This document shows positions 14,522 through 17,078 of a stretch of 21,621 bases of DNA, piece after piece (the first letter of the stretch is position 1; each line of letters starts with the position of its first letter). Under the pieces are notes generated by a model. That model was not told the origin of the DNA and did not search any database. It was given only the letters and a program-made list of their open reading frames with translations. The DNA comes from a virus. The DNA is taken from IMG/VR virus record IMGVR_UViG_3300040960_000479, positions 1 to 21,621 of that record, one strand, 5' to 3'. A program made the translations under genes and the position numbers.

Positions 14522-15646
14522 TCAGAAAGTAGAAGGAGCAGTAGCACCCACGTACAGCTCAACAGAAGCTGCAGGGTTCAGATAGTCACAACCACAAGCC
14601 AGACGACCCAGCATCACATCACCTTGATAGATGACAGACACATCGCCGCTGGTGACTTGCACCTGAGGACCAATAGCTTCCACCATACCAGCGGCTTCCT
14701 TTTGGAAGATAAGACCGCAGGACTTGGCACCCACTTCAGCAGCAGTACCGTAATCGTTGTTGATACCAGTAGAAGCATCAGAAGCATTCTCCAGAGCTTC
14801 AGCCACGAAGTCACCAGTGTTACCAGGAGCAGTCACACCAGTGGTGCCGCCGTAAGCAGTACCATACTTACCCAGGAACGGAATGTTCATGGACTTGTAG
14901 ATCTTGATACCAGCAATCTCGATGATTCCGTTACCGGACTGCAGAGCAGTACCTTGAACGTCACGATTCACAAGACCGTTGGAACCCACAGCTTGAATCA
15001 GCTCATAGTATTGACGGGGGTTAAGCACAGCCACACGGCCATCGCTAGACACACCCTTCTCATCAAGAGCAGCAGCAGCATCATAGAATGCAGCTACCAG
15101 GTTAGCAGCCACATAAGCATCAGAATCGTTAGCAGTAGAACCTACACGAATCTGAGTACCACCGGGCTCAACATAGTTGGTAGCGGTGATAGGAGAAGCC
15201 TTACGTGCACCACGAGTGATAGCACGGAAAGCAAGGCGGTCATACTTTTCAGCCAAAGCATAGCCGATCTTACGTGAGATCTCCGAGCGCAAATCGTAGT
15301 GAGCAAGAACTTCATCAAGCTCATAGACAAAAGCAGAGCTAATCAGCAGGTCATCACAAGTGATAGTCTTCTCGGCCACCGGAGGTGCACCGTTGCTATC
15401 ACCCAGGATGCTGTTGCCAGGAGTGTGGAACTCAGACTTAGTACGACCCGTGAAGATGAACTGCAGGGATTTGCCGTTCTTCAGGGTACGCTTCATGATC
15501 AGATCACGAGCGATTGTGTTGTTCTGGAAACCCTTGAACATCTCACCGCTAAACAGCTTGAGATATAGGGCACGGCGATCAGCGCCGAAATTATCTGAAC
15601 CCGGAACAGTAAGTTGTGCGGGGTTCACAGAAGATTGAAAAGCCAT
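14522..15646 (-). CDS. Major capsid protein (gp10A-like)
   Basis: This 374-aa protein, slightly longer than T7 gp10A (345 aa), lies between the photosynthesis cassette and the terminator, the T7 gene 10 position. The N-terminus carries FGADRRALYLKLFSGEM, then NTIARDLIMKRTLKNGKS and FTGRTKSEFHTPGN, followed by KTITCDDLLISSAFVYELDE. This pattern is typical of T7-like cyanophage capsid proteins with the HK97 fold. It assembles the icosahedral shell with the scaffold and portal. Codon use is GC-richer than in the tail genes, which fits a highly expressed gene. The start lacks a Shine-Dalgarno (CTCCTTTTAAAAATG); initiation probably depends on the AT-rich leader. Confidence 0.95.
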   Translation of the reverse strand: MAFQSSVNPAQLTVPGSDNFGADRRALYLKLFSGEMFKGFQNNTIARDLIMKRTLKNGKSLQFIFTGRTKSEFHTPGNSILGDSNGAPPVAEKTITCDDLLISSAFVYELDEVLAHYDLRSEISRKIGYALAEKYDRLAFRAITRGARKASPITATNYVEPGGTQIRVGSTANDSDAYVAANLVAAFYDAAAALDEKGVSSDGRVAVLNPRQYYELIQAVGSNGLVNRDVQGTALQSGNGIIEIAGIKIYKSMNIPFLGKYGTAYGGTTGVTAPGNTGDFVAEALENASDASTGINNDYGTAAEVGAKSCGLIFQKEAAGMVEAIGPQVQVTSGDVSVIYQGDVMLGRLACGCDYLNPAASVELYVGATAPSTF

Positions 15647-15811
15647 TTTTAAAAGGAGTTAAGTAATAAGAACTTGCTCCCAAACGTTTGGAAAATTTTT
15701 TGAGTTATTTTTGACTGTCTCTCCAGTCCGTCTAGACGGCGAAGGTTGTCCTCGTAAGGGCCAACGCCAATAGGAACAGGGTCCGACTCTGAGGTGCCCT
15801 GCTCCGTTGAA
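15647..15811 (-). other. Structured leader upstream of the capsid gene
   Basis: These 165 bases lie between the 34-aa micro-gene and the capsid ATG. The upstream part is GC-rich and can form several hairpins on the transcript. The first is a 9-pair stem, GGAGCAGGG (15797-15805) with CCCTGTTCC (15773-15781), loop 15 bases. The others are GTTGGCC...AGGACAAC, CCGT-CTAG-ACGG, and GACTG-GAGAGA-CAGTC. The downstream part is AT-rich up to the capsid start. A frame without stops overlaps this region (15649-15837, TTG start, ends just before the capsid ATG), but the other frames are also largely open, so coding is not established. A capsid promoter would be expected near here by T7 analogy, but none is recognised with confidence. 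Confidence 0.55.
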
Positions 15812-15916
15812 TTATTTAGTTTTAGGTGTGTAAGCAACGCCGCGATACTTCAGCTTCAGCTCTTTCTGATGAGCTTGCTGCTCCCGTACACGGGCATCCA
15901 ATTCGACTTGAGTCAT
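15812..15916 (-). CDS. DUF4278/PirA-like micro-protein, 34 aa
   Basis: This short ORF begins at ATG 15916 and encodes a charged protein of 34 residues. The N-terminal half is helical (LDARVREQQAHQKELKLK). The C-terminal half carries KYRGVAYTP, the YRGVxY core of the cyanobacterial DUF4278 family. In cyanobacteria a member of this family, PirA, binds the PII signal protein and alters flux into arginine synthesis. That function is known for the host family, and its transfer to this phage protein is inference. It follows a riboswitch-like pseudoknot by about 16 bases, which strengthens the case that it is a real gene. No Shine-Dalgarno is present (TTTACAATG). A strong hairpin starts 6 bases after its TAA. 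Confidence 0.7.
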   Translation of the reverse strand: MTQVELDARVREQQAHQKELKLKYRGVAYTPKTK

Positions 15917-15922
15917 TGTAAA

Positions 15923-15985
15923 GGACCGAAGTACCTACCCCCCGTTCCATGAGTAGGTGTCATGCGTTCCCGAAGGAATGAACGG
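15923..15985 (-). promoter_or_regulatory. Glutamine riboswitch-like pseudoknot (downstream-peptide type)
   Basis: The minus-strand RNA begins 10 bases after the psbA stop and folds as a pseudoknot. P1 pairs CCGTTC (15980-15985) with GAACGG (15942-15947). Inside it P2 is TTCC-TTCG-GGAA (15967-15978). P3 pairs ACCTAC (15953-15958) with GTAGGT (15933-15938), crossing P1. The CGTTCA start, small P2, the CGCATGACACC joint and the GGAACGGGG-GTAGG end resemble, from memory, the cyanobacterial and cyanophage downstream-peptide class of glutamine riboswitches, which precede short ORFs as here. The hairpin GGTAC-TTCG-GTCC (15923-15935) shares bases with the 3' arm of P3 and sits next to the start codon, so it is a candidate expression platform. 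Ligand identity is inferred from the class resemblance. Confidence 0.72.
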
Positions 15986-15995
15986 ACGACGTTAC

Positions 15996-17078
15996 TTAAC
16001 CAATAGTAGGAGCTACCAATGCCACAGGAGTGGTATCAGCAGCAGCCAAATCAAGAGGGAAGTTGTGAGCATTACGCTCGTGCATTACTTCAAAGCCGAG
16101 ACCAGCTCGGTTCAGAATGTCTGCCCAAGTGTTAATGACTTGTCCTTCAGACGAGAGAAGGGATTGATTGAAGTTAAACCCATTCAGGTTAAACGCCATA
16201 GTAGATACGCCAAGAGCAGCGAACCAAATACCCACCACTGGCCAAGCAGCAAGGAAGAAGTGAAGACTCCTACTATTATTAAAACTTGCGTATTGGAAAA
16301 TGAGACGCCCGAAGTACCCGTGAGCAGCGACGATGTTATACGTCTCCTCTTCTTGACCAAACTTGTAGCCATAGTTCTGACTCTCTGTTTCAGTAGTCTC
16401 ACGCACAAGCGAGGACGTAACAAGCGAGCCGTGCATAGCACTGAATAGCGACCCACCGAATACTCCAGCGACCCCAAGCATATGAAATGGGTGCATGAGA
16501 ATGTTATGTTCGGCTTGGAATACCAGCATGTAGTTAAAGGTTCCCGAAATACCCAGAGGCATAGCATCGGAGAACGAACCTTGACCAAAAGGATAGACGA
16601 GGAAAACAGCGGACGCCGCTGCAACCGGAGCAGAGTATGCGACACAAATCCAAGGGCGCATCCCTAGTCGATAGCTAAGTTCCCACTCGCGTCCCATGTA
16701 AGCATAGACGCCAATGAGGAAGTGGAAGACCACAAGTTGGAACGGTCCCCCGTTGTAGAGCCATTCATCAAGTGAACTAGCTTCCCAAATTGGGTAGAAG
16801 TGTAGTCCGATGGCATTGCTGCTCGGAACGACGGCTCCCGATATGATGTTGTTTCCATAAAGAAGACTGCCTGCAACAGGCTCTCGGATGCCATCAATGT
16901 CAACCGGAGGAGCTGCAACAAATGCAACGATAAAACAAATGGTGGCTGCAAGGAGACAAGGAATCATCAAGACTCCAAACCAGCCGAGATAAAGACGGTT
17001 GTTGGTCGAAGTGACCCAGTTACAAAAAGAGTCCCAAGGATTAACTCGGGACTGTGGTGCTGCGAGTGTAGCAGTCAT
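15996..17078 (-). CDS. psbA: Photosystem II reaction centre protein D1
   Basis: This is a complete 360-aa D1, the thylakoid protein that binds P680, pheophytin, QB and the Mn4CaO5 cluster. Numbering is one higher than canonical. Key residues are present: TyrZ Y162, D171, E190, H191, H199 (P680 ligand), H216 and H273 (non-haem iron), and H333, E334, H338, D343 and A345 (manganese cluster). Residues 346-360 form the C-terminal extension normally removed by CtpA. Position 131 (canonical 130) is Glu, the high-light type. Five membrane helices are evident. There is no intron or frameshift. The phage copy would replace fast-turning host D1 during infection in light. It follows the RlpA-like gene by 8 bases, with a CAATTATG start and no Shine-Dalgarno. 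Confidence 0.99.

Follow-up and report, generated by a model that had tools for sequence, protein, structure and literature searches.

A predicted glutamine-II riboswitch and its micro-gene ahead of the capsid gene in T7-like cyanophages

Introduction

Marine picocyanobacteria carry the type 2 glutamine switch (glutamine-II, or Downstream-peptide, RF01704) ahead of DUF4278 genes, whose expression it raises at nitrogen excess, and a 2018 review regards the class as restricted to these organisms (PMC6316151). Weinberg 2010 recorded the motif in cyanobacteria and in marine samples, not in cyanophage. The Yfr6 RNA of Prochlorococcus is a chromosomal transcript that combines this aptamer with a 33-aa peptide (PMC2518516, PMC2864571). 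DUF4278 (PF14105) also makes up the N-terminal part of the glutamine synthetase inactivating factor IF17, where it is dispensable for inhibition of the enzyme (PMC6316151).

Glutamine riboswitches are on record for other marine phages, as a glnA-type element in methylophage Melnitz and as a mention for T4-like cyanophages (PMC9004378, PMC9602691, PMC9964418). Melnitz and the virus studied here both carry a glutamine-class aptamer, but that of Melnitz is type 1 (glnA-like) and sits beside tmRNA; the other cases also belong to different phage groups and are not the pair of aptamer and micro-gene described below. The literature on phage glutamine riboswitches that we covered yielded no RF01704 aptamer with a DUF4278-type micro-gene in podoviruses. 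The riboswitch class is known; its viral form and setting are new.

T7-like cyanophages rank among the significant members of the marine virioplankton, and their hosts are often nitrogen-limited. If the assignment made here is true, a conserved glutamine-reading riboswitch within a viral late cluster would directly connect the nutrient status of the host with infection.

The locus and its aptamer

The window, that is, the whole stretch of DNA analyzed, is a 21,621-nt (21.6-kb) viral record from a T7-like cyanopodovirus. On the minus strand, scaffold, hli and an RlpA-like gene precede psbA; the aptamer follows, and after it come a 34-aa ORF, the major capsid gene and, last, tail genes, which were assigned from position and relatives. 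The phage setting anticipated by the original prediction, between psbA and a micro-gene, is confirmed. A scan of the window found no intrinsic terminator or sigma-70 promoter on the minus strand between psbA and the capsid gene. The relevant features are:

15996..17078, minus strand: psbA, directly upstream of the aptamer (ORF; blastn relatives annotated psbA)
15933..15987, minus strand: glutamine-II riboswitch aptamer, RF01704 (Rfam cmscan 50.9 bits, gathering score 33, E 6.9e-10)
15980..15985, minus strand: pseudoknot 5' strand CCGTTC, P1 of the original prediction (sequence; U-A for C-G in SS120-1)
15967..15978, minus strand: hairpin UUCC-UUCG-GGAA, P2 of the original prediction and P1 of the crystal structure (sequence; both-side changes)
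15960..15966, minus strand: linker CGCAUGA, which holds C17-G18-C19 of the crystal structure (triple and long-range pair) and is identical to the crystallized RNA (PMC6698751)
15953..15958, minus strand: 5' strand ACCTAC of stem P3, which is P2 of the crystal structure (both-side changes in relatives)
15942..15947, minus strand: pseudoknot 3' strand GAACGG (sequence; invariant core in relatives)
15933..15938, minus strand: 3' strand GTAGGT of stem P3 (both-side changes in relatives)
14522..15646, minus strand: major capsid protein gene, downstream (PF21703, E 5.1e-70)

RF01704 is the sole Rfam family above threshold in the whole window, and its score against the cut-off bears out the downstream-peptide/glutamine riboswitch architecture that had been proposed from the letters. 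The three predicted helices are also present in the minus-strand sequence: the TTCG-capped stem pairs 15975-15978 with 15967-15970, and the pseudoknot helix CGUUC/GAACG crosses the P3 stem. One refinement concerns the outermost P1 pair. In the crystal structure, the nucleotide equivalent to G15942 pairs with a linker C (here C15964) rather than with C15985 (PMC6698751), and 7 of 18 phage relatives do not form the outermost pair; the pseudoknot therefore consists of five pairs plus one long-range pair. In pseudoknot, both stems, linker, core nucleotides and the short DUF4278-type ORF that follows, the locus agrees with host glutamine-II elements, but the phage copy lies in a lytic late gene cluster beside the capsid gene. 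Judged by sequence, the window aptamer is a member of RF01704 and is predicted to bind glutamine.

Covariation was evaluated over 18 phage aptamers found by covariance model. Both-side changes occur in 12 of the 17 pairs, the observed values are reached by none of 500 shuffles, and pairing falls from 90.6% to 46-56% when the partner is shifted by one column. Such changes affect the three outer pairs of the hairpin and all seven pairs of P3, U15952-G15939 included. Pseudoknot pairing is maintained throughout the 18 phages with a single compensatory change, the exchange of C-G for U-A in SS120-1. In addition, 118 distinct aptamers were found by a pattern that leaves the P3 stem outside; among the matches listed, at least five P3 pairs are kept in 117 of them, versus a mean of 38 with partners shuffled. 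Compensatory changes, which the original prediction had proposed to look for in related cyanopodoviruses, are thus present and the helices are kept.

The micro-gene and its product

The ORF directly behind the pseudoknot is real, as originally suggested:

15812..15916, minus strand: 34-aa micro-gene with a single LKYRGVAY unit, partial DUF4278 relative (Pfam, phrog_5049, pN/pS)

In the window its start codon lies about 16-17 nt past the end of the aptamer. Of 118 distinct viral cases among the matches listed, 116 have the start codon 21-25 bases past the end of the pattern, with a Shine-Dalgarno-like sequence in 88. Selection on the peptide is apparent from a pN/pS of 0.49, pooled over 757 same-length pairs of viral relatives among the matches listed. 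The second Tyr is kept in 113 of 113 viral relatives, again among the matches listed, through use of both codons; this codon test is partly circular for Y-R-G, a criterion in picking the ORFs, and the second Tyr stands outside that criterion.

DUF4278 is the only Pfam match of the window peptide, and it is limited to positions 37-57 of the profile (E 7.7e-4; 20.2 bits, below the cut-off of 25.3). The common element is the LxYRGxxY unit in the C-terminal third of the profile, present in the window peptide as one copy (residues 22-29), versus two to four in DUF4278 proteins, and the 34 residues do not include the C-terminal inhibitory part of IF17. On its sequence the peptide counts as a partial DUF4278 relative; the Pfam cut-off keeps it from being a member. 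Phage peptides are 17-18 aa long in P-SSP7, P-SSP10 and others (13-18 aa in many phages), and their N-terminal parts vary freely in length and sequence.

A search for DUF4278 among solved structures returned a chance match only. Structure prediction gives a hairpin-helix-hairpin for a host peptide, at a low pTM of 0.30, and one helix (residues 3-24) for the phage peptide, with the YRG unit devoid of regular structure. These models were left out of the evidence.

Distribution and host counterparts

The comparison set comprised 28 T7-like cyanopodovirus records (isolates and three fosmid or contig genomes) and one siphovirus. RF01704 scores above cut-off in 19 of the 28 podovirus records and in siphovirus S-CBS4, once per genome. 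The podovirus slot is constant: psbA or scaffold stands on one side of the aptamer and the capsid gene on the other, and the aptamer is followed by a YRG micro-ORF that is often unannotated. S-TIP28, S28-C3 and SS120-1 carry the module without psbA at that place. The module was not seen in 7B11-B, DSL-LC07, S-SRP01, S-CBP2, Syn5, S-CBP42 and P60 of the 28-podovirus set, and the module-less podoviruses include two freshwater phages; since several podoviruses do without it, the module is not essential.

A few individual records deviate from this arrangement. S-CBP3 has a rearranged aptamer (L145, about 2108-2160) in which pseudoknot and P3 pairing are possible and the linker CGCAUGA and GGG are gone, with an intact YRG micro-ORF behind it; this may reflect either decay or an altered ligand. 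In S-SBP1 (L141, about 2009-2210), the aptamer hairpin loop is split by an insert of ~150 nt with an annotated 54-aa ORF, and the stem is kept on both sides. S-CBS4 (L138, 2403-2459) places the riboswitch and a 39-aa YRG micro-gene right after a tRNA gene, outside the podoviruses. At the place where other phages have the riboswitch, 7B11-B (L139, about 1360-1640) shows the 3' end of psbA in about five tandem repeats.

The pattern scan of IMG/VR gave at least 120 viral loci, and because many of these contigs are closely kin, the counts that follow are not independent events. Among the matches listed, a YRGx(x)Y micro-ORF starts no more than 60 bases downstream in all 115 viral loci with 200 downstream bases; random places give 168 of 20,000. 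The nearest downstream marker is the capsid gene in 101 of 103 viral loci with room and psbA in the other two, and, with a single exception, viral loci with room have psbA or scaffold upstream (both among the matches listed).

Run on bacterial genomes, the same pattern finds mainly Prochlorococcus and Synechococcus. The two groups differ in repeat number: 127 of 128 viral peptides among the matches listed have one LxYRGxxY unit, versus two to four in 99 of 105 host peptides. The 33-aa host peptides behind the aptamer carry two units. The viral peptide is equivalent to the final unit of the host peptides plus an N-terminal extension, long in some phages and near-absent in others. One genome-labelled locus (L249) has the phage-type peptide; it also bears the phage leader RNA described below and is thus probably a phage contig. 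We note that the only two-unit viral peptide among the matches listed (L036) comes from a short stretch of 1934 bases, with no capsid gene near.

A second structured RNA in the capsid leader

Another conserved element separates the micro-gene from the capsid gene:

15711..15806, minus strand: 96-nt structured RNA, capsid-gene leader (covariation; no Rfam family)

It consists of a covarying stem around invariant CACCUCAGAGUCGGAC, a stem with a UACG-type loop, palindromic CCGUCUAGACGG (or a CAUG variant), and a covarying stem with loop GA(U/G/A)AGA. Both-side changes occur in 16 of 21 pairs, and the covariation score is reached by none of 500 shuffles. Our model of this RNA (R1) finds one copy each in 23 of 29 phage records, and matches 55 of 60 sources (window and viral loci) versus 1 of 60 genome loci (L249); the 23 and 55 include sequences used to build the model. 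The RNA is seen in the window and at loci L002-L150. An Rfam search with it returned no match. This capsid-leader RNA is undescribed and unrelated to the riboswitch.

Discussion

The reading we favor, at a probability of roughly 80%, is that the glutamine-II riboswitch and the micro-gene form a fixed T7-like cyanophage module before the capsid gene, with a predicted glutamine-ON peptide that has a putative DUF4278-type role. A mechanism for the glutamine-II riboswitch was proposed with the crystal structure (PMC6698751). Going by tested host RNAs, L-glutamine would stabilize the phage pseudoknot. By analogy with the hosts, the glutamine-locked pseudoknot would allow ribosomes to start on the micro-gene, and the peptide would be produced when the infected cell is nitrogen-rich. 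With low confidence, we suggest that the peptide binds whichever host partner the multi-repeat host DUF4278 proteins engage and may thereby adjust host nitrogen assimilation late in infection. Direct inhibition of glutamine synthetase is not proposed, because the peptide does not have the inhibitory part of IF17.

Translational control of the micro-gene is favored by the short and constant spacing between aptamer and start codon, and by the failure to find a terminator in the window scan. In the folding model, imposing the pseudoknot on 121 viral leaders among the matches listed left accessibility of the ribosome site unchanged (0.425 vs 0.433), so that no expression platform emerged from it, and host leaders showed a slight gain.

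The micro-ORF might instead encode a leader peptide that acts in cis, on the ribosome or the RNA behind it, and not as a free protein. Peptides of only 13-18 aa in many phages fit this idea, as does the fact that a structured RNA and the capsid gene nearly always come next. We consider it unlikely, since host proteins of up to 72 aa contain the motif two to four times, and the N-termini of the phage peptides are free in length and sequence.

Control of the downstream late operon, such that capsid synthesis follows glutamine, is less probable again. The aptamer does lie on the same strand, 287 bases upstream of the capsid gene, and no intrinsic terminator was found between them. However, the start codon that keeps a short, fixed spacing is that of the micro-gene, an expression platform of the terminator type was not seen, and the capsid gene is preceded by a 96-nt structured leader of its own, which also occurs in the riboswitch-less phages 7B11-B, DSL-LC07 and S-SRP01. 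On the same grounds, the earlier suggestion that phage output as a whole tracks nitrogen status is not supported: the layout implicates the micro-gene alone, and the separate RNA before the capsid gene leaves a nitrogen response of capsid output unsupported.

A variant aptamer that has kept the fold and changed its ligand would have precedent in other riboswitch classes, and S-CBP3 shows that the locus can diverge. This seems very improbable for the window, where every core binding-site nucleotide named in the crystal structure (C1-C5, C17-C19 and G35-G41) is retained. Least probable of all is that the aptamer and peptide are passenger host sequence, acquired with psbA and now decaying: the module is missing in 7B11-B and the aptamer is rearranged in S-CBP3 and split in S-SBP1, but compensatory changes, purifying selection, a fixed slot over many genera, and the presence of the module in podoviruses without psbA at that place all argue against it.

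Returning to the favored module of riboswitch and micro-gene, the one-repeat peptide provides an entry point to the role of DUF4278 in picocyanobacterial nitrogen control. A broader and more doubtful proposal is that a stacked control region before the capsid gene, made up of the glutamine riboswitch, a micro-protein serving as a monovalent decoy against the multi-repeat host DUF4278 proteins, and the new leader RNA, might tie host nitrogen to late infection.

The 96-nt capsid-leader RNA is a separate lead. Its palindrome, CCGTCTAGACGG or CCGTCATGACGG in relatives, is kept through compensating changes and overlaps the 3' strand of the adjacent stem; the palindrome and the neighboring stem may be alternatives, or the palindrome may form a dimer contact.
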